Of a stretch of DNA of 64,000 nt, positions 12,632 through 28,398 are shown in pieces. The DNA is from Bradyrhizobium icense (GTDB taxonomy: Bacteria > Pseudomonadota > Alphaproteobacteria > Rhizobiales > Xanthobacteraceae), in the NCBI RefSeq assembly GCF_001693385.1, contig NZ_CP016428.1, positions 5,642,001-5,706,000 of the forward strand, read 5' to 3'. The notes under the pieces were generated by a model. It saw only the letters and a program-made list of their open reading frames with translations. It did not search any database and was not told the origin of the DNA. Both the position numbers and the translations under genes were made by a program. The first letter of the stretch is position 1. Each line of letters opens with the position of its first letter.

Positions 12632-12647
12632 TGGCATATCGCTTGCT
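12632..12647 (+). promoter_or_regulatory. sigma-54 (-24/-12) promoter of ahpCD
   Basis: TGGCATATCGCTTGCT keeps GG and GC exactly 10 bp apart, matching TGGCAYG-N4-TTGCW at most positions. It lies 55 bp before the ahpC start. Control by NifA is inferred from the surrounding nif genes. Confidence 0.6.
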
Positions 12648-13808: not shown

Positions 13809-13877
13809 TCCACCACTCCGCGCTCTTTGCCGAGGGTGTTCTGGAATCGAAATGCGGTTGATAATCCAACAACTTCA

Positions 13878-13899
13878 GGCGCATTTGGGAGAATGCGCC
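13878..13899. terminator. hairpin between convergent ahpD and E1-like gene
   Basis: GGCGCATT and AATGCGCC form an 8-bp perfect stem with a 6-base loop. It sits in the 211-bp gap between two gene ends facing each other, where a two-way terminator is expected, but no clear T-run follows on either strand. Confidence 0.35.
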
Positions 13900-14019
13900 C
13901 CCCTCAGCAATTTCAATAGCTTGGCAGCCCTCTCCAAAAGAAAATAGCGCGTCCGGCTGGAGCGCACGTTCGCGGCGCCTACCGTCAGGCGAGGCCTTCC
14001 AATAGTGATCAGATCGAAG

Positions 14020-15555
14020 TTAAGGAGCTCTGCAGCTTCGGTACTTTCGTCGGTATGCAGCTAAGAAGTCTTCGTCGGCGCAGATGCACCGTCCTGACGG
14101 ATCTTTTGCCTTGGGATCGTGAAGATGCGACGCTAGTGGACGAAGCAGGTTAATCCGTGTGCTTGTGGTCTGCAGGTTCAGAAGCCCGGAAGCATGCTTC
14201 ACGAGATCCGCCGCCAACATTATACCAGCGAGAGCCGACTGAAATGACATCGGCACAACGGCTCTTACAGACTGCGCTCCGTCTGTCAGGCGCATAACAA
14301 TCCCCCCGCAGATTGCCCGCTGGTGAAACGATCGGACGGACTGGCCGACAAACTCTTTAAGGGCTTCGGACGGGATGTCGAAGGCCTTGGCGACACGCTC
14401 GACGAATCCTACATCCACCGGCCTGTTCGTCTGAAGGAGATCCCGGATCTCCTGTTGAGCCTCCGGCATCTTCAGCTCCTCAGCCATCTTCTCGTCCTCG
14501 TCCTTTTCCTTCGCATGAGGCAAGTAAAGGCAGGCCAGACATGCCCGGCCGTCATCAAAGCCATGGCGCGACACTCCGAGATCAAGCTCCTGTGTCCAGG
14601 CGTTTACGATCCATTTCGGCAACGCCCCCTGCACGGCAATGCGGTCCGGAGCGTTGTCCAATCCGACAGCGACTCTTTCGAACATCCAATCGTTCCGGTC
14701 GCTCACATAGACGTCCCATTTGGCACAATGCGCCGACACTTCCAGCACCGTGTCCGCGAGCGCGGCACGCGCCAGATCCGCTTTTGGTGAACCAACATCG
14801 CACTGGCCGGCCAGCACGTATCGCTGCAGATTCGAAAGATCGACCTCCTCATGGTCCACCAGACGGAGCGATCCCTTAAGGCCCACTGCTCGAGCCAAGG
14901 CCCATATAGCGCCATTCCCGATCGCGCCGAGCCCGACGAGGTGAGTCTCGCCGATATCCGTTCCCTCAAAGCTCGGACCGGAGTCAGGGGTACCCTGGGC
15001 GTAGGTCAGCATTGATAGGTCGATAAGTTCGTCAGCGTCGCCCTGATCCAGCTGGTCGGCAAATACCGTCCGAAAGACATTGGCTGCGGCGAAGCATGAC
15101 GCAGCTCCCGCGCCAAACGGATTCATCGACTCGCCGGAGCCAATCAGACCGCGGCTCGAAAGCTTGGCTCTCCATCCGTCCGAGCCGATGAAAAAGGTCG
15201 GACACTTAGTGCGCGACGGACTGCTTCCAACGACCACGGAAACTGTGACGGCCTTTCTGGTCTTGGCCAGCTCGATCTCAGGATTTATGGACTTCGCCAG
15301 GAACTCCAGGATTGGAGCATGATCCTTCGCTTTTGCATCGAGCGGCAGCAGCGCGATCGTCGGATAAAGACGCGACAACAGCCTGATGATCATATCCAGG
15401 CTGGCCCTGCCTTCCGGCGACTGCACGGCTGCGCCGTCGAAAGACACTTCGATCACTTGCGCGGCAAGCCTGTCCTCGAACGCCGACACCTTGAAATTGG
15501 TCAGCACCCGCGACGCCGCCGACGCCGCACGGTCCATGAAGTTGGCCATGGCCAT
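14020..15555 (-). CDS. E1-like ThiF/MoeB-family adenylyltransferase of a ubiquitin-like system
   Basis: 511 residues. After a 200-residue N-terminal domain comes the ThiF/E1 core: nucleotide loop GLGAIGNG (208-215), the DHEEVDLSNLQRYVL stretch (234-248) with the ATP-contacting Asp, Asn and Arg, and K258. CLAC (C339/C342) and CIC (C490/C492) may bind zinc; C416 (RAICGG) is a candidate thioester cysteine. An E1 activates the C-terminal glycine of a ubiquitin-like protein as an adenylate, then passes it to an E2. It is the last gene of the Ubl-E2-JAB-E1 operon, starting 3 nt after the JAB stop. Zinc and cysteine assignments are inference. Confidence 0.85.
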   Translation of the reverse strand: MAMANFMDRAASAASRVLTNFKVSAFEDRLAAQVIEVSFDGAAVQSPEGRASLDMIIRLLSRLYPTIALLPLDAKAKDHAPILEFLAKSINPEIELAKTRKAVTVSVVVGSSPSRTKCPTFFIGSDGWRAKLSSRGLIGSGESMNPFGAGAASCFAAANVFRTVFADQLDQGDADELIDLSMLTYAQGTPDSGPSFEGTDIGETHLVGLGAIGNGAIWALARAVGLKGSLRLVDHEEVDLSNLQRYVLAGQCDVGSPKADLARAALADTVLEVSAHCAKWDVYVSDRNDWMFERVAVGLDNAPDRIAVQGALPKWIVNAWTQELDLGVSRHGFDDGRACLACLYLPHAKEKDEDEKMAEELKMPEAQQEIRDLLQTNRPVDVGFVERVAKAFDIPSEALKEFVGQSVRSFHQRAICGGIVMRLTDGAQSVRAVVPMSFQSALAGIMLAADLVKHASGLLNLQTTSTRINLLRPLASHLHDPKAKDPSGRCICADEDFLAAYRRKYRSCRAP

Positions 15556-15558
15556 CGT

Positions 15559-16047
15559 TCAATCCTTGATTAAAATCATCCGCGTAACCTGGCCAACCGA
15601 CAGGGGGCGCCACACTCCAGCCCCGTCAAGCCGGTACGATGCGACGTTCCTGAGATCGAAGGGCGCTCGCGCGAAGTCCGGCACGACCAAAGACAAGCAC
15701 CCCACCGTCGTGGCGATCGCGTACTCGTCGTCCGTGCTGGAATGATAGGCTCGGCCGGGATGACTGTGTATCTGGGCAATGAGCGCAAGCTTCTCCCGGT
15801 ACAGCCATACATTTATGCGATGCAGCTCTTCAGGTCCTGTTACGACGCACACCCCGTCGGCAGTACGTATGTGGCGCTGGGCGGGAATCAGAGTCCTATG
15901 TACCTGAAAATGGTGCCCCGTCTGACGGCCTACCCAAAGGCCGAGACCTTCATGACCTTCACGTCCCACTTTCCGCAAATGGGCATGGACTTCGTCCACG
16001 CAGCCACGCGGTACCGAAAGGACCGTAACGTCCGCGATCTGATTCAT
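15559..16047 (-). CDS. JAB/JAMM metallopeptidase, deubiquitinase-like
   Basis: 162 residues, a single JAB1/MPN domain. The metal site is complete: E33 (GHEGLGLW), H94 and H96 in IHSHP, S104 and D107 in HSSTDDEY, fitting E...HxHx7Sx2D. Such enzymes cut after the terminal glycine of ubiquitin-like proteins. Since the Ubl encoded here already ends in GG, the enzyme is more likely to remove it from targets than to mature it. The gene overlaps the E2 gene by 4 nt upstream and leads directly into the E1 gene. Confidence 0.85.
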   Translation of the reverse strand: MNQIADVTVLSVPRGCVDEVHAHLRKVGREGHEGLGLWVGRQTGHHFQVHRTLIPAQRHIRTADGVCVVTGPEELHRINVWLYREKLALIAQIHSHPGRAYHSSTDDEYAIATTVGCLSLVVPDFARAPFDLRNVASYRLDGAGVWRPLSVGQVTRMILIKD

Positions 16048-16667
16048 TCCGGTACGGCCAGTAATGAGGCCAGCACGTTTACCGCCGGGATCTGGACCTG
16101 CACCTGCACCTGATAATGCTCAATCGGTGATACCCCGTGGTGCCAGATCTTTTCGAGGATAAAAACTAAGGATCCTTCGCCAGAGCTTCGATGCATCAGC
16201 CAAGAATCACCGGTGTGAGCGGGATTGTCGTGGTATTCGCGAATGCCGGGAAGACAAATAAATGGCCGATCATCAGGGCTGTTGTACTGAATCATGTTTG
16301 TCACTTGCACCCCGCCCTGCTGGGCCAGCGCCCGAATGGTTTCGGGAGTTGCGCCGGGGATTGCCGCACGGCGAAGCATTTGCACCTGGAGCAATTTGGC
16401 GGGTATCGGTTCGCGCGTGAAAGGGTCCACGAACCTGACGGAGGGCGGCCGCAGATCGTAATCCGTAAAATTCAGCACGATGGCAGCGACGATCGGAGGC
16501 GGTCTCGGCTTAGTCGCCGCGAAAACCACGAAAATTTCCGGAAACTCTGCGTCAAGCAGGATCCAGCCCCTCTTGCGATAGGCCGATTCCATGCTCCGAT
16601 AGTTGGCAAGCTCCCGCTCGAACTTTACGCGCGAGACCTCGGGATCGACAGTTTGGAGATCAGCCAC
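16044..16667 (-). CDS. E2-like (UBC-fold) protein
   Basis: 207 residues with one cysteine only, C138, in FICLPGIREYHDNPAHTGD; the pattern Cys-Leu-Pro-Gly followed by EYH-x-x-PAH is typical of the bacterial E2-like families found next to JAB and ThiF genes. C138 would carry the ubiquitin-like protein as a thioester before transfer to a target. The N-terminal 30 residues are helical; the middle (WILLDAEFPEIFVVF) looks like the UBC beta-sheet. It overlaps the Ubl gene by 8 nt and the JAB gene by 4 nt, so expression is coupled. Confidence 0.8.
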   Translation of the reverse strand: MADLQTVDPEVSRVKFERELANYRSMESAYRKRGWILLDAEFPEIFVVFAATKPRPPPIVAAIVLNFTDYDLRPPSVRFVDPFTREPIPAKLLQVQMLRRAAIPGATPETIRALAQQGGVQVTNMIQYNSPDDRPFICLPGIREYHDNPAHTGDSWLMHRSSGEGSLVFILEKIWHHGVSPIEHYQVQVQVQIPAVNVLASLLAVPE

Positions 16668-16950
16668 CGGCCACGCCAGCCTTGAGACTCAGGAACAGCG
16701 TCACTTCATTGCCAAATCCAAACTCGCCTACCTTCGTGTCCGCATCCAACAGCTCGCCCGCTTCGTTCTTGATCTCCCAATTCTCGGGCGGCTGAGCCAG
16801 GTTCTTGGTCTCCTCCAGCGCCTTTTGGCGGACCACATGCAGCGGCTGCTGCTCTACGGCCTTAATGACGACAGGCTGACCGTTCACGACCATCGTGAAT
16901 TCGACGAAATCCGCGCCCTGATCACTTCCCGCCTTCTTCTCATTCTTCAT
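16660..16950 (-). CDS. ubiquitin-like protein (DUF2604-type) ending in Gly-Gly
   Basis: 96 residues from MKNEKK, chosen because AGGACC lies a few bases upstream; an earlier in-frame ATG at 17034 adds an unlikely basic tail. After a charged start (to about residue 20) comes a beta-grasp domain (FVEFTMVVNGQPVVIKAVE, then LHVVRQKAL and FGFGNEVTLFLSL). The C-terminus is GVAGG followed at once by the stop, exposing the diglycine needed for conjugation. It is the first gene of the operon, ahead of E2, JAB and E1. The protein is the likely modifier; targets are unknown. Confidence 0.8.
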   Translation of the reverse strand: MKNEKKAGSDQGADFVEFTMVVNGQPVVIKAVEQQPLHVVRQKALEETKNLAQPPENWEIKNEAGELLDADTKVGEFGFGNEVTLFLSLKAGVAGG

Positions 16951-17326
16951 TTTTGGTCCTTTTGTGTGTGGGCGGCGCTTGGAATCGATGCTGCCGATTG
17001 TATGCAGGGGACGAGGTGTTAAAAAAGGGAGCATGCCACAAGACGCAATCGAAAAGCCTTCATTTGGCGCGTGCGTACGCAGTTTTCAGGCGTTAGCGCT
17101 TTTTCGTCCACATCTCCGACCCGTTGCGGCTTAAGCCGCCCAGACCGGCGGCCCGCCAGTGAGCAACATCCGGAACACGTCGTCGCCACACTGGCGCATG
17201 TGGCTCAAGCTGGACAACCGATGCCTCGTGCCCTTCAACGGCTTTGCCAAATACGCACCGAACCGACCCCCGAAACGAAGAAGAAGGATGTCGTATGGTT
17301 CGCGCTAAACGAGGATCGGCCGCTCT
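16951..17326. other. upstream region of the ubiquitin-like operon
   Basis: No gene is supported. It should hold the operon promoter on the minus strand, but no clear -35/-10 or -24/-12 pair is visible. An antitoxin gene expected before yoeB is not found here. Confidence 0.35.
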
Positions 17327-17614
17327 GTGCCTGCGCTGGCATCGGGACCGAGTTCAGGGGCGACCGCGGCACCAAATCCAAGCCGTTCCCAATGGCAGAA
17401 GGAAGACCCAAAAATTCACCAAGCCATTAACGATCTAATCAAGGACATCAAGCGCAATCCACATAAGGGGCTCGGGAAACCGGAGCCCCTTAAGCATGAT
17501 TTGAAGGGTTGGTGGTCGCAGCGCATTACCGGAGAGCATCGACTTGTTTACCGCCTCATTGGAAAGGGCGAGACCCAGCAACTCGACATCGCTCAATGTC
17601 GATACCACTACTGA
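17327..17614 (+). pseudogene. yoeB: yoeB toxin gene, 5' end lost
   Basis: From about residue 22 the protein reads like YoeB: WQKEDPKIHQAINDLIKDI, KGLGKPEPLKHDL, and the C-terminal RYHY. The mRNA-interferase residues of the C-terminus (E in GEHRLVYR, R in LVYR, H and Y at the end) are kept. The N-terminal strand is replaced by unrelated sequence (MPALASGPSSG) and there is no yefM-type antitoxin gene upstream. YoeB cuts mRNA on the ribosome; here it is probably inactive. Confidence 0.6.
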
Positions 17615-17765
17615 GCTGCTGGTCCGCAATCCCGCCTTCCGAGACCTATTTCGGAGGCGTGCGCAAGCCGAAGTATAGATTGCTTAACGCTAAGCATACC
17701 ACAGACAGCCCTTGAAGGGGGCTGGTCTCGGTTTGTTGGGGGAAGTTATGAGGGCTTTAAACGGC

Positions 17766-17797
17766 GAAAGAGGCCCCCTAGTTCGGGAGCCTCTTTC
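17766..17797. terminator. strong hairpin, probable terminator
   Basis: GAAAGAGGC and GCCTCTTTC are a 9-bp perfect stem that extends inward with CCC/GGG. AAA and TTT at its edges would suit termination in both directions. It lies between the yoeB remnant and the HEPN-like gene. Confidence 0.55.
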
Positions 17798-17930
17798 AAA
17801 GATGTTTAGACTCAGGTAGCGGCCCAACGGCAAATGTCGCAACGCGCCATCACTCCCGGAGTGGTCAGGTTTATCGCTAATTCGTGCTCCCCTGTCAAGT
17901 TCCCTAAAAAAATAGTCGGTTGCAGCCTAA

Positions 17931-18748
17931 ATGCCAGATATCTCTTACGAATTTTTAACGAAGTTCTTTACCAACTATTTGCCCTTCTCCCCAACGCCGA
18001 GCCAGGTTGAGGATTTTCAGTCCGATTTGACCCTTGTAAGTCCCTACCTACTTGAGGCCTCCCTGATCGAAGTCAAGGAGGGAACCAAGGGTGAAATACT
18101 AAAATACCTCCCTAACGATTGGCGACCGGCGATCTTCTCCGTATATAACCGCAAAGTGGCTGAACACGCCCAGCTGTTCCCGGTCTTTCACTCTTTCGAG
18201 AACGCTTTGCGCTCAACTGTCGCAGTGACCTTAGAGCAGCACTACAAGCATCCACGGTGGTGGCGCGCCATTTACGAGGAGCTAAAGAAGGGCGGGAGGG
18301 CCAAGAATATTGCCCAGATCGGCGGCGTTCCACTCGCCCGCCATGCGGCCTTTAGAATCGGCACGGTCATCTTGGACATTGAGGGCAAGCAGTTCCCCAA
18401 TGGGCCGATTGATGCAATGGCGAACGGCTACGAGTTTATGCACGATTGTCATTTGGCCCACATACGGCAGCTTATTGAGGAACACTGGGCGGTATTCTCC
18501 CCAAAATTCCATCCGCTAAGTGCAGCCGACTTCACCGCCAAATTGAGAAGGTGCGGGAGGAGCGGAATGCGGTTTATCACCACCGATCACTATCGGGCAT
18601 GTCGGATGTTGTGTCGGCCGCCGAAGAGCTTTTGGACAAGCTCAATTTCTGCCTGAAATTCGTTCACGGCAAAGTCACAGACTGCGAGCCGACAAAACTT
18701 GCCTTTTCGGTCGAAGCCGAGAAGAGGCACCGCACTTGGGTAGTCTAA
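17931..18748 (+). pseudogene. HEPN-containing Abi-like gene with one frameshift
   Basis: The first frame (17931-18540) gives a normal-looking protein: a helical N-terminus, then HSFENALRSTVAVTLE and HHIR-type segments. At about 18540 sense is lost, and the next frame continues the same protein with IEKVREERNAVYHHRS. RNAVYH fits the RxxxxH motif of HEPN ribonucleases. Restoring one A in the run GCCAAATTG would rejoin the frames. Abi/HEPN proteins kill or stall phage-infected cells by cutting RNA. Whether the shift is real or a sequencing error cannot be told from the sequence. Confidence 0.6.
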
Positions 18749-18843
18749 TTTCAAACTGAGACACTACCTCCGAAGATCCCGAGAGCTGAGACGACGAACC
18801 GCGCCGTCTTGTTGTCCTGGCGAGGACGATCAGTTGGTGCTCA

Positions 18844-19602
18844 TCAAAAGATATATTCGGGCGCCAGCCATTTGTGTGGGACGCCGGTCGTCAGACCGCC
18901 ATCGATGACGATCTCGGAACCGGTAAGATAACTGGACTCGTCGCTGAGCAGGAACAAGACTGCCTGCGCCACTTCCTGCGGCCAGCCTGCCCGTCCAAGT
19001 GGAATGGGGAAAATGGAGGGATCGAAGCTCTCGGTCATCGGCGTGGTGATGAAGCCGGGATGGATCGAGTTGACGCGGACGCCCGAGGCCGCGGCCTCCA
19101 GCGCAGCAGACTTGGTTATGCCCCGCACGCCGAATTTGGAAGCGACATAGGCATGAAGCCCGGCAGTGCCCCGCAGCCCCTCGACGGACGAGACGTTGAC
19201 GATCGAACCTCCGCCCGCGCGCCGGATTGCGGGCAGGGCCGCCTGCATTCCAAGGAACGCACCGGTTAAGTTGACGGCAATAATCTTATTCCACTGATCG
19301 AGCGCGAACTGCTCGATCGGGGCCATGCTGACGATGCCAGCATTGTTAACCAGCCCATGCAGCGCGCCGAAGCTGCTCTCGGCGGTCGCGACCGCCCTGG
19401 CCCACTCCTCCGGCTGGGTGACGTCCTGACGCACATAGATGGCGGAAGTGCCCAGTTCAGCCGCGAGAGCCTCTCCTTCTGTATGAAGAATATCAGTGAT
19501 TACGACCTTGGCGCCCTCAGCGACAAGCAGGCGGGCATGAGCTGCACCCATGCCGCGAGCTCCGCCGGTCACCAGAATGACCTTTTCGTTCACACGTCCC
19601 AT
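18844..19602 (-). CDS. short-chain dehydrogenase/reductase
   Basis: 252 residues, classic SDR: cofactor loop VTGGARGMG, NNAG, active-site serine in NVSS and YVASK. D36 in VITDIL suggests NAD preference. The C-terminal half has PLGRAGWPQEVAQ and TGSEIVIDGG, typical of hydroxysteroid or 3-oxoacyl reductase-like members. The substrate cannot be told. It lies alone between the HEPN-like remnant and fix genes and is followed upstream by an unassigned reading frame. Confidence 0.85.
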   Translation of the reverse strand: MGRVNEKVILVTGGARGMGAAHARLLVAEGAKVVITDILHTEGEALAAELGTSAIYVRQDVTQPEEWARAVATAESSFGALHGLVNNAGIVSMAPIEQFALDQWNKIIAVNLTGAFLGMQAALPAIRRAGGGSIVNVSSVEGLRGTAGLHAYVASKFGVRGITKSAALEAAASGVRVNSIHPGFITTPMTESFDPSIFPIPLGRAGWPQEVAQAVLFLLSDESSYLTGSEIVIDGGLTTGVPHKWLAPEYIF

Positions 19603-20317
19603 GATGTTCCTTGCTCGCTTCGTTGATCAGTGGCGGTGCAGCGGGGCGATCAGCTCGAGCCCATCTTTCTCGCGTAGACCCAAACTGGACACCTTGACGA
19701 TCTCGCCGCCCGAAACTATGCGCGCCTTGTCATTCCAGAAGAACTCTTGATGGTACTCCATCAGTCGTTCGCCGACTTGGCCGCACGCCCGCTCTAGGGA
19801 AATGGAGGTCAGCAGTTCGTAGGTGCAAGTGGAATTTTCCTTGAACATGCGCCCCGCCGCGCATGACCTGCCATCCTTCGCCACGGGCATGGCTCCAGTC
19901 GCCGAACTGCTCCATCTTCTCGAAGGGACGACATTCTCGCCCGACAGTCCCGCCCTCCTTGATGAGATAGGCTGCTGCCGCCTACCGGCGCCGGCTCCCA
20001 CCAAACAGGCGTTCGCGGAGCCGCCTGCTGCGTTGGATCAGGCTTTGACGAGGCGAGGACAACGCACATGAGGTTCTCCGGCGTGCAGCGGCGGGAAGAT
20101 CCAGGTCCTTCTAATCAGCGCGCCAATGATGGCGCGCAGAAAAGCTTGGAAAATCTGATTGCGAGGCAAAGCTCCCGCGACCGTTCCGCGCGCCGGGCAC
20201 GTCACCAGCTACCGCCATTTGATACGGCCTCTCCGCACAAGCAGGGCGTGGAGACATGGATCTGCCGTGAGATCGTCTCAATAAAAGGGCGATCACACTG
20301 CGCCTGCCGTTCAGCTC
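19603..20317. other. interval with one unassigned minus-strand reading frame
   Basis: A minus-strand frame (19627-20004) ends in a natural-looking stretch (ERLMEYHQEFFWNDKARIV and LGLREKDGLELIAPL) just upstream of the SDR gene. Possible starts are at 19890 or 19848. The family is not recognised and the N-terminal part looks random, so it may be a gene remnant. Nothing is seen between 20005 and 20317. Confidence 0.3.
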
Positions 20318-20614
20318 TCAACCAAACTTGAACAACACACCATATCCGCCGCGCGGATAGCTCCATTCGATGTCGCCGGTGGGCTCGCCGATGACGCGGC
20401 AGGTGCCGCACTCAATACAGCCGTCGACGGTGACCTCGACCTGTCCCTTATCGTTAAGCTCATAGCAGCGCGCTGGGCACACCTTTAAAAGTGCAAGCAG
20501 CTGCGGGGACGGCTTCGTGTGTGCGCGCACTTTGATGTGGGGACGACCGACGTCAACGAGATAGCGGTTGTAGAACAGCTTGTCCTCGACGCGCACTGAT
20601 GTCTCGACATTCAT
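20318..20614 (-). CDS. fixX: ferredoxin-like protein FixX
   Basis: 98 residues. CPARCYE and [11 protein letters not shown] are the cysteine groups of the FixX Fe-S domain. FixX is thought to carry electrons between the FixABC complex and nitrogenase. It is the last gene of the fixABCX order, 32 bp after fixC, with normal length. Function needs FixA, whose gene here is broken. Confidence 0.95.
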
Positions 20615-20646
20615 ATTTCAGCTTCCTTGGCTTCGATTTTGGCTGG

Positions 20647-21954
20647 TTAGCGCCAGGCACGGGCGAGGCGGAATGCATCGCCAAATAGACCGGTCCAGGA
20701 CCGCGCGTTGACAAAGGATCTCAATGTCACCTTCTCTTTCTCAGCCTTCGGCGTACCGTCGACGCGTACATAGTTCTGCATCGCCCTGGAGACGAGCTGC
20801 GGATAGGTGAGAAAGAAGTTTTGCGAGTTGGTATGCATCAGCATCGGCATATCCCTGTGCTTCTTGAGATCCTTAATCACGAAGGAGTCGTCCAGCATCT
20901 TCTTGTAGACTGACAGATTTGCCGCGGTCATGGGTTGGCGGCGCGATTTCACCTGGACGATCGCTTCCGCCGCGATGCGGCCCGAAGTCATCGCGAGGTT
21001 AGAGCCCTCGCGATGAATGGCATTGTTGAGCTGCGCCGCATCGCCCACCACCACCCAGCCATCGCCATAGAGCTGCGGGATCGCCTTGTAGCCGCCTTCA
21101 GGGATGAGGTGCGCGGAATATTCCTTGACCTCCGAGCCCTCGATCAGGGGCGCCACGGATGGGTGACGCTTGAAACGGTCGAGCAGCCCGTATGGCGTCT
21201 CTCCGGTGCGCTGAAAGTCGGCGACGATACAGCCGATGCCGATCGAGATGCACTCCTTATTGGCATAGATGAAGCCCATTCCGGTCATGCCACGGGAAAT
21301 GGTGCCGGCCGCTTCGACAACGACGCCTTCGTCGCCCTTGAGATTGAAATGGGCCTCGATGGTCTCACGCGGCAAAAAGTGCATTTCCTTGACCGCGAGT
21401 GCCACCTTGTCGGGCTTGGGCCGCTCGCGCAGGCGCGCATGTGTACCGAGAAGGCCATTCACGCCTTCGGCCAGCACCACGACATCTGCGTGGATTTCGC
21501 CGTCGCGGCGATCCGTACGAACACCGATGACTTTCCCATGGGCGTCGCGCGCGAGCTCAGTGACGGTGGTCTCGCACAGCACGGTCGCGCCGGCCTCGCG
21601 CACTTTCGAGGAGAACCATTTGTCGAACTGCGCGCGGATGATGGTGTACCGGTTCGGCCGCTCCTCGTTGAAGTCTTCGGAGCGGTAGTGCACGCCGAAA
21701 TGGGAGCGATCGTCCATCATCCAGAACCGTTGCTCGACGAGATGACGTTCGAGCGGCGCGTCATCGCGGAAGTCCGGGATCAGCTTTTCGAGCATGTCGG
21801 CATAGAGGATTGCGCCCTGAACATTCTTCGATCCGGCATATTCACCGCGCTCGAGCTGCAGCACCTTCATGCCGCGTTTAGCCATGGTCAGCGCCGCCGC
21901 GTTGCCCGACATGCCGGCGCCGACCACGATTGCATCGAACTTCTCCTCGATCAC
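20647..21954 (-). CDS. fixC: FixC, flavoprotein quinone oxidoreductase
   Basis: 435 residues. The N-terminal dinucleotide fold ([20 protein letters not shown]) binds [19 protein letters not shown] is the second FAD contact. FixC resembles ETF-quinone oxidoreductase and passes electrons from FixAB to quinone and to FixX in a bifurcating reaction that drives nitrogenase. It is full length, 11 bp after fixB and 32 bp before fixX. No damage is seen. Confidence 0.95.
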
Positions 21955-21965
21955 AACAACCTCCT

Positions 21966-23075
21966 CTAGCTCGCGATCCGATCGCGCGAATGCGGCGAAA
22001 GCCGTGCACGAAATGCGGCCGTCAGCGCCGGTAACAAGTGCATAGCGTCGTTGACGACGCCGATATGGGCAAAGTCAAAGATTGGCGCGTTCTTATCGGT
22101 ATTGATCGCGACGATCAGATCGGCGCCCTCCACGCCGACCCGATGCTGGATCGCGCCGGAAATGCCTGCGGCGATATAGAGCTTTGGCCGGATGGTCTTG
22201 CCCGTCTGGCCGATCTGCCGGTCGGAGGTGACCCAGCCCTTTTGTACCAGCGGACGCGAACAGCCATATTCGGCGCCGAGCACGGCGGCGAGCTGCCGTA
22301 CCAGCTGGAAACTCTCCGGCGAGCCCAACCCCAGCCCGCCGGCGACGACGACGTCGGCATAGGCGAGATTGGATTTGGCCGAATCACGGTCCGGCACAAA
22401 GGACAGCACCTTGGTAACGATGTCTTCTTCGAGCAGGCGGAGCGGATGGATGATAATACGGGCGGCATCGCGCGCGACACGCTCTGGCATCGGCATCACG
22501 CGCGGGCGGACGGTTGCCATCTGCGGCCGGTAATTCAAGGTGTAGATCGTGCAAAGCAGCGATCCGCCAAAGGTCGGACGCGTGGCCGCAAGCGAACCAT
22601 CCGCGTCGACGTCGAGCTCGGTGCAGTCGGCGGTGAGACCCGTCAGTAGTGTGGTGGCTACCGAGCCTGCAAGATCGCGACCGAGCGTGGTGGCGCCCAA
22701 CAGCAGGATCTCTGGCTTGTAGGTATTGACGAGATCGGTCAGCGCCTTGGTGTAGGACTCGTTACGATACTCCGACAGCACATTCTCGGTCACGAGATAG
22801 GTTAGGTCGGCGCCGTAGCAGAAGGATTCGAGCGCGGCGTTGCGCGTGGTCTCGGCCTCCGGGCCGATGACGACCGCAGCGAGATCAACCTTCAGCTTGT
22901 CGGCAAGCTTGCGACCTGCACCCATGAGTTCCCAGGAGACGGGATGCACCTGGCCGCGCTCCTGCTCGACGAAGACCCAGATGTGCTTGTAGGCCTTAAA
23001 GCGCTCGGGCAATTCTTTTTTGATTCCTGCGCGGCCGCCCGCGGCCGGCGTGGGAGCTTTGGTGATGTTGCTCAT
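21966..23075 (-). CDS. fixB: FixB, electron-transfer flavoprotein alpha subunit
   Basis: 369 residues. The N-terminal half starts with [19 protein letters not shown]; the C-terminal half has the FAD-binding [14 protein letters not shown] and [17 protein letters not shown]. It pairs with FixA, moving electrons to FixC. The gene is intact and is spaced normally from fixC. The fixA gene just upstream carries a large deletion, so FixB would lack its partner unless another copy exists. Confidence 0.95.

Positions 23076-27372: not shown

Positions 27373-28398
<1,026 letters not shown>

Follow-up and report, generated by a model that had tools for sequence, protein, structure and literature searches.

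We analysed a 64,000-nucleotide stretch of the Bradyrhizobium icense chromosome (NZ_CP016428.1, positions 5,642,001 to 5,706,000; hereafter the window), in which four genes on the minus strand, at 16950-14020, form an operon for a ubiquitin-like protein (Ubl), an E2, a JAMM peptidase of the JAB type and an E1, in that order. Consecutive genes overlap by 8 bases (Ubl/E2) and 4 bases (E2/JAB) or are separated by 3 bases (JAB/E1). In the following list the Pfam matches stand beside the alignments to the solved chains of the bacterial Bil proteins.

16660..16950, minus strand: bilA-like gene, 96-residue ubiquitin-like protein of family DUF2604 (PF10790, 5.3e-33; BilA chain 8tyx_A, 120 bits, residues 10-95 aligned)
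16044..16667, minus strand: bilB-like gene with a GTG start, 207-residue E2, named 'Metal_CEHH' in Pfam (PF14455, 2.5e-107; BilB chain 8tyz_C, 239 bits, residues 1-206 aligned)
15559..16047, minus strand: bilC-like gene, 162-residue JAMM peptidase (Prok-JAB, 1e-7; BilC chain 8tyx_B, 228 bits, residues 2-160 aligned)
14020..15555, minus strand: bilD-like gene, 511-residue E1 (Prok-E2_C, 7.6e-43, and ThiF, 7.4e-15; BilD chain 8tyz_A, 683 bits, residues 1-507 aligned)

A chance arrangement is excluded by the Pfam scores of the four proteins together with a gene order that is conserved across loci: all 86 loci retrieved have E2-JAB-E1, preceded in 84 by the Ubl gene. An earlier note, made from the DNA letters without database searches, had read the four genes as encoding a Ubl, an E2 with a single cysteine, a JAMM peptidase and an E1, and profile matches and matches to solved chains agree on these identities. 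The closest characterised system is BilABCD of Ensifer aridi (PDB 8tyx, 8tyy, 8tyz, 8tz0), which has the same gene order and the same catalytic residues; homology between the two sets extends over all or most of each of the four proteins. The structures of the E. aridi proteins are reportedly those of Chambers et al. 2024. Against the locus of E. aridi LMR001 the identities amount to 68, 57, 62 and 60% for Ubl, E2, JAB and E1, respectively, and the two operons differ in this sequence divergence, in the residue that follows the conserved glycine of the Ubl and in the chromosomal site, which in the window lies between ahpD and fixX. A relative of the window E2 (P0222) is named 'E2(BilB)' of Ensifer aridi in UniRef, and the PADLOC models for BilC and BilD match the JAB and E1 proteins at 1.5e-16 and 4.8e-16. 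Judged by homology, the window operon is a BilABCD operon with all four genes intact, and it very likely performs conjugation chemistry. We refer to it as type II, which we take to be the label for BilABCD operons with a single Ubl domain.

The earlier note had also described this DUF2604-type version as far less studied than Bil. This does not hold, because the DUF2604 branch is the Bil branch with solved structures and because the operon type was described as early as 2006 from the NGR234 megaplasmid. In the portion of that work consulted (Iyer et al., 2006; PMC1779556), the prototype of operon type 6c consists of an E1-like protein, a JAB protein and two uncharacterised proteins, one of them a predicted metal-binding protein, and the E2-like domain is assigned to the N-terminus of the E1. 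The pNGR234a copy retrieved here has all four Bil genes, and in the window the 'metal-binding' protein is the E2, as follows from solved BilB; Pfam retains both old names (Metal_CEHH and Prok-E2_C). A metal-binding role of the CEHH protein was accordingly rejected, since it is homologous to solved BilB and the CEHH residues are the E2 catalytic set.

Two better-known systems share this chemistry. Type I Bil operons, to which the PADLOC Bil models presumably belong, have the four functions in common with the window operon and are said to encode a two-domain BilA, whereas the window Ubl is a single domain of 96 residues; phage defence by type I Bil has reportedly been described by Millman 2022 and Hor 2024. 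Type II CBASS (cyclic oligonucleotide-based antiphage signalling system) shares E1, E2 and JAB chemistry through Cap2/Cap3. There, however, E1 and E2 are fused and accompanied by a cGAS-like cyclase, whereas the window E2 has a gene of its own and no nucleotidyltransferase or cyclase gene was found among the ten flanking open reading frames (ORFs) scanned with Pfam. On a Mesorhizobium plasmid with nolL, a second ubiquitin-like system, composed of a multiubiquitin protein and a ThiF protein, lies about 8 kb from a type II Bil operon (L117, 1-1791).

The catalytic residues of the three enzymes are present. In the consulted part of a review (PMC11354881), the active residues of BilB are given as Cys138, Glu144, His146 and His151 and the active cysteine of BilD as Cys417. 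The window E2 carries C138, its sole cysteine (codon 16256-16254), as well as E144, H146 and H151 at the published numbering, and all four are kept in 85 of 86 loci, the remaining locus having a gap; the earlier note had made its conjugation idea depend on conservation of C138, and both this conservation and the correspondence of C138 to the catalytic Cys138 of BilB speak for that idea. In the JAB protein the JAMM set of E33, H94-x-H96, S104 and D107 is complete, and across the 86 loci E33 is conserved in 86, H94 and H96 in 85 each and D107 in 83. Misses at catalytic positions are gaps in L053, L095 or L098 or, at D107, a different residue in L100 and L105. The E1 consists of an N-terminal Prok-E2_C region and a ThiF adenylation domain with GLGAIG at 208; its C416 (codon 14310-14308), kept in 84 of 86 loci, aligns with C417 of 8tyz_A. 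From this alignment the E1 is predicted to have an inactive and an active adenylation domain and a CYS-domain cysteine, as in BilD, and its conserved CxxC (339/342) and CxC (490/492) cysteines form a probable zinc site. The ThiF adenylation domain is similar to MoeB, as in a sulfur-carrier pathway of the ThiS/ThiF kind, which would take the place of protein conjugation; a separate E2 with the CEHH set, the JAMM peptidase, C416, near full-length homology to BilB-BilD and a complete lack of sulfur-metabolism genes among the ten flanking ORFs scanned with Pfam make such a pathway highly improbable.

The C-terminal tail of the Ubl calls for a correction of detail. The window protein ends in GG, as the earlier note had stated when calling it diglycine-ended, but GG is not a family-wide motif, being found in only 14 of 116 DUF2604 homologues. 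What is conserved in 116 of 116 is a glycine at the sixth residue past an LFLSL-type strand, which in the window is G95 (codon 16668-16666; kept in 85 of 85 loci) and is followed by a single tail residue, G96. Beyond this glycine the homologues have no residue (19/116), one residue (65/116) or 2-6 residues (32/116), the 65 one-residue tails being A in 27, V in 15, G in 14, E in 7 and H and D in one each; all 12 rows of the Bradyrhizobium group to which the window belongs have G as the tail residue. A diglycine as mature end or family motif was rejected on this pattern of a single glycine with a variable tail of 0-6 residues. Since BilC trims BilA and thereby exposes its glycine, according to the part of the review consulted (PMC11354881), G95 is by analogy likely the mature end and G96 the residue trimmed off. 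The beta-grasp fold assumed in the earlier note would fit the alignment with the solved BilA chain. The start of the protein is uncertain, as an upstream in-frame ATG at 17034 would give 124 residues; homologues measure 96-97 residues in the seven closest named Bradyrhizobium and 119-123 in four metagenomic sequences. Many DUF2604 proteins have 119-167 residues, with an N-terminal extension ahead of the ubiquitin-like domain, and one DUF2604 group has longer tails with a GR end.

Comparison of the window with 15 Bradyrhizobium loci gave ratios of non-synonymous to synonymous substitution rates (dN/dS) of 0.15-0.24 for E1, 0.07-0.20 for JAB and 0.07-0.38 for E2, so that these three genes are under purifying selection; a pooled E2 comparison excluded L032, L033, L036, L038, L041 and L044. 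In the last of these, from B. murdochi, the E2 is divergent from about residue 92 onwards, with synonymous differences saturated in residues 91-150, and Ubl, JAB and E1 are 89-97% identical to those of the window. Positive selection on this E2 was rejected because synonymous sites are saturated as well, which recombination fits better: part of the gene looks to have been replaced by a divergent version, for which no close donor was found among the retrieved E2 proteins.

Modelled on the solved homologues, the system would work as follows. The BilC-like JAMM peptidase would trim G96 from the Ubl, exposing G95, which the E1 would adenylate before holding the Ubl as a thioester on C416. The Ubl would then be transferred to C138 of the E2, which would conjugate it to lysines of target proteins, and the JAMM peptidase may also remove conjugated Ubl. 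By analogy with other Bil operons only, the Ubl would be attached to structural proteins of phages, and the virions released from the cell would be defective; interference of Bil with phage assembly has reportedly been described by Hor et al. 2024.

The operon is part of an insert of about 6.4 kb, as homology to an operon-free genome (L119) ends at about 13836 and restarts at about 20238; homology to a second one (L120) ends at 13823 and restarts at 20317. Besides the Bil operon, the insert holds a YoeB-type toxin gene, a split gene and an SDR gene. The features of the site are as follows.

13837..20237, strand not applicable: approximate insert between ahpD and fixX, from homology breaks against L119 and L120
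12702..13808, plus strand: ahpC-ahpD-like genes (PF00578, PF02627), left edge, convergent with the Bil operon
17327..17614, plus strand: ORF for a YoeB-family toxin (PF06769, 5.6e-28), upstream of the operon on the opposite strand, a passenger of the insert
20318..23075, minus strand: fixX-, fixC- and fixB-like genes (PF05187, FAD-dependent oxidoreductase families, electron transfer flavoprotein), right edge

For comparison, the site was inspected in 26 nodA-positive Bradyrhizobium genomes, each in 1-4 contigs and lacking a strong E2 match (one, G198, has a distant match at 1.7e-41). In 19 of them there is no insert, the ahpD-fixC spacing of 550-597 bases having room for little more than fixX; among these, G033, G034, G098 and G200 have a broken or partial ahpD gene. 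Two genomes carry other cargo: in G191 it measures 3.5 kb and includes HipBA, and in G210 it measures 6.4 kb and encodes a group II intron maturase together with an unknown 622-residue protein. In the remaining five, no ahpD was seen beside fixC. A retrieval in which 80 of 106 confirmed loci were kept included 17 Bradyrhizobium Bil loci; ahpD-ahpC follows immediately downstream of the operon in 11 of them (L032-L041, L044), and fixBCX lies upstream in six of these 11; four others have at most 3.3 kb of upstream sequence, and in L036 fixBCX was not seen in 8.6 kb upstream. The other six of the 17 loci have none of the ahpD-ahpC or fixBCX neighbours. The Bradyrhizobium pattern probably reflects a single old insertion that travels with the island, with L036 rearranged, and the spot between fixX and ahpD is an insertion hotspot. 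Upstream of the Bil operon, at 17931-18748, the split gene extends over two frames, one a 241-residue ORF with a weak PADLOC match to PDC-M34B (2.7e-5), the other with an R-x4-H stretch and no Pfam match; we take this stretch to resemble a HEPN motif. The 622-residue protein that occupies the fixX-ahpD spot of another Bradyrhizobium near the group II intron maturase (L118, 1775-3643) has no match in Pfam or PADLOC.

With nifH at 27427-28245 and fixBCX-like genes in the window and with nodA on the same chromosome at a distance of 400 kb, the symbiosis-island setting proposed in the earlier note is confirmed, and gene content and catalytic residues agree with its view that a full Bil-type conjugation and deconjugation set resides there. 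An alternative reading gives the operon a symbiotic function: within nodules, for instance inside bacteroids, it would modify proteins of the bacterium itself, and symbiosis islands would retain it on that account. To assess the link with nodulation, E2 matches below 1e-70 were counted as strong and nodA was called below 1e-60, with 24 Bradyrhizobium genomes having only weaker nodA matches left uncounted. A strong E2 match was obtained in 22 of 265 Bradyrhizobium genomes and a weaker one in nine more; nodA is present in 21 of the 22 against 118 of the 243 others (Fisher p 8e-6), or in 27 of 31 against 112 of 234 when the nine are added (p 3e-5). Among 146 Mesorhizobium genomes, 56 have strong matches and three weak or partial ones, which were not counted, and nodA is present in 54 of the 56 against 47 of the 90 others (p 2e-9). 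Because the genomes are related, these p values overstate independence. The enrichment would fit a symbiotic role, as would the grouping of rhizobial copies into four well-supported clades in an E1 tree of 62 rows, several of them on long branches, and the copies on pNGR234a and on an S. numidicum plasmid, the latter about 3.4 kb from nifB. In the same tree, the clade with R. etli p42a is set apart from the rest by Methylobacterium rows and the other three rhizobial clades join a sphingomonad row at an unresolved fork.

Bil and nodA are 156-573 kb apart in six single-contig Bradyrhizobium genomes, with nifH 11-105 kb from Bil in the five for which it was among the matches listed. In 14 near-closed Mesorhizobium genomes, which hold 16 copies, the distance to nodA is 19-451 kb. 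Two further near-closed Mesorhizobium genomes have both on one contig, and one closed Mesorhizobium genome has Bil without nodA; in the tabulated near-closed nodA-positive genomes Bil and nodA share a replicon. In the limited literature searched, including the consulted parts of the reviews PMC12687455 and PMC12355090, we found no treatment of Bil in symbiosis islands, of its concentration in nodA-positive genomes or of the fixX-ahpD hotspot, and the latter two may be new. The main text of an RNA-seq paper on NGR234 bacteroids (PMC3732241), as far as consulted, contains neither 'y4q' nor 'ThiF', and 'ubiquitin' only in its references.

Against a symbiotic function stand the promoter region, the wider distribution and the surroundings of the operon. 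Within 650 bases upstream of the Ubl gene there is no TGT-N10-ACA, the upstream activator sequence (UAS) of NifA, and the best -24/-12 site has two mismatches and lacks the GC, whereas nifH, as a positive control, has an exact -24/-12 element at 28435-28420 with two UAS upstream. Control by NifA from the operon's own promoter was rejected on this contrast. Searches of the other loci with strict patterns returned four isolated TGT-N10-ACA matches (L095, L100, L106, L109) but not a single -24/-12 element. A -24/-12-like element with one mismatch lies at 12632-12647, 55 bases ahead of ahpC-ahpD, and suggests that this peroxiredoxin pair may be under nitrogen-fixation control. Copies of E2, JAB and E1 also occur in Methylobacterium, Bacteroidota, Acidobacteriota, Gemmatimonadota and Actinomycetota, partly in metagenome-assembled genomes; nodA is missing in seven of 50 genomes checked, drawn from the 80 loci; and B. 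nitroreducens and a few nodA-negative rhizobia carry Bil copies. Insertion sites differ between loci, and on R. etli p42a the operon adjoins TIR and caspase genes. Taken together, this makes a symbiotic function unlikely.

Other neighbours point in the direction of defence. In three Bacteroidota copies (L108, L109, L110) an HTH-M78 gene with a match to CapH/CapP lies upstream on the opposite strand; in the consulted part of PMC13373217, CapH and CapP together regulate immune operons in response to DNA damage, and CapK/CapS, which are related to CapH/CapP, are neighbours of five Bil operons. A neighbour of an actinobacterial copy (L106) matches NsnA/PD-T4-2. When 116 hand-chosen of 227 neighbours were pooled for a PADLOC scan, one member each for Pycsar cyclase, ZorA, ThsB and SoFic was found among the matches listed, the best 25 of 198 families. 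A phage-borne origin of the operon was rejected, as the E1 was unmatched in phage records and none of 48 pattern matches on viral contigs was confirmed as an E2 relative.

On three Sinorhizobium plasmids (L112, L114, L115) the same VapC/StbC-type toxin-antitoxin pair precedes Bil. This pair, together with the YoeB gene near the window operon and the location of Bil and nodA on one replicon, would be in keeping with a module for stability or competition between elements, one that promotes persistence of the island or plasmid or excludes rival elements and would not act on phages; Iyer et al., 2006 (PMC1779556, in the portion consulted) proposed that such operons serve addiction or protect against invasive replicons. 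Toxin-antitoxin genes are, however, common on such elements, and we regard a stability module as a minor possibility, somewhat ahead of the symbiotic function.

We consider it likely that the complete type II BilABCD operon is an accessory defence module carried in a small symbiosis-island insert, and by analogy with other Bil systems it most likely serves to protect the cell or the symbiosis element. Defence cargo is favoured because NifA/sigma54 signals are lacking, homologues occur in non-symbionts, defence genes lie nearby and the site is an insertion hotspot. The choice between defence and symbiosis, which the earlier note had left open, is narrowed toward defence by promoter, distribution, neighbour and site data.

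Several results weigh against this reading. The published defence activity reportedly concerns other Bil operons only, and the link with nodA would also fit a symbiotic role. The neighbour survey, which favours defence, is only suggestive, because it covered selected neighbours without matched control regions and PADLOC gave no match for 14 of the 20 that were scanned one by one; for the HTH-M78 genes, moreover, the PADLOC RmrA models score above CapH/CapP. As to the family assignment, the PADLOC BilB model matches the window E2 weakly (2.8e-4), the PADLOC models give no match to the Ubl, and no NCBIfam model scores above its own cut-off for any of the four proteins. S104 of the JAMM set is variable, being Ser in 18 and Thr in 48 of the 86 loci. 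Finally, purifying selection is weaker on the window Ubl: its dN/dS is 0.08-1.73 in single pairs with the window, with few changes each, and 0.70 when the 11 pairs with the window are pooled, compared to 0.32 among the 11 relatives (55 pairs).

For the family, the analysis corrects two labels: the 'metal-binding' CEHH protein of Pfam is an E2, and a terminal GG is not the conjugation motif. It also ties a solved bacterial ubiquitin-like pathway to nodule-forming bacteria, where its role is testable. More speculatively, and with considerable doubt on our part, type II Bil might be specifically kept by rhizobial symbiosis elements, where it would guard nod and fix DNA or the plant-bound host from phages and competing elements, or tag proteins of the nodule bacteria. 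If this were true, ubiquitin-like conjugation would contribute to legume symbiosis, and should Bil guard or serve the symbiosis elements, the ecology of nitrogen fixation would include ubiquitin-like tagging.

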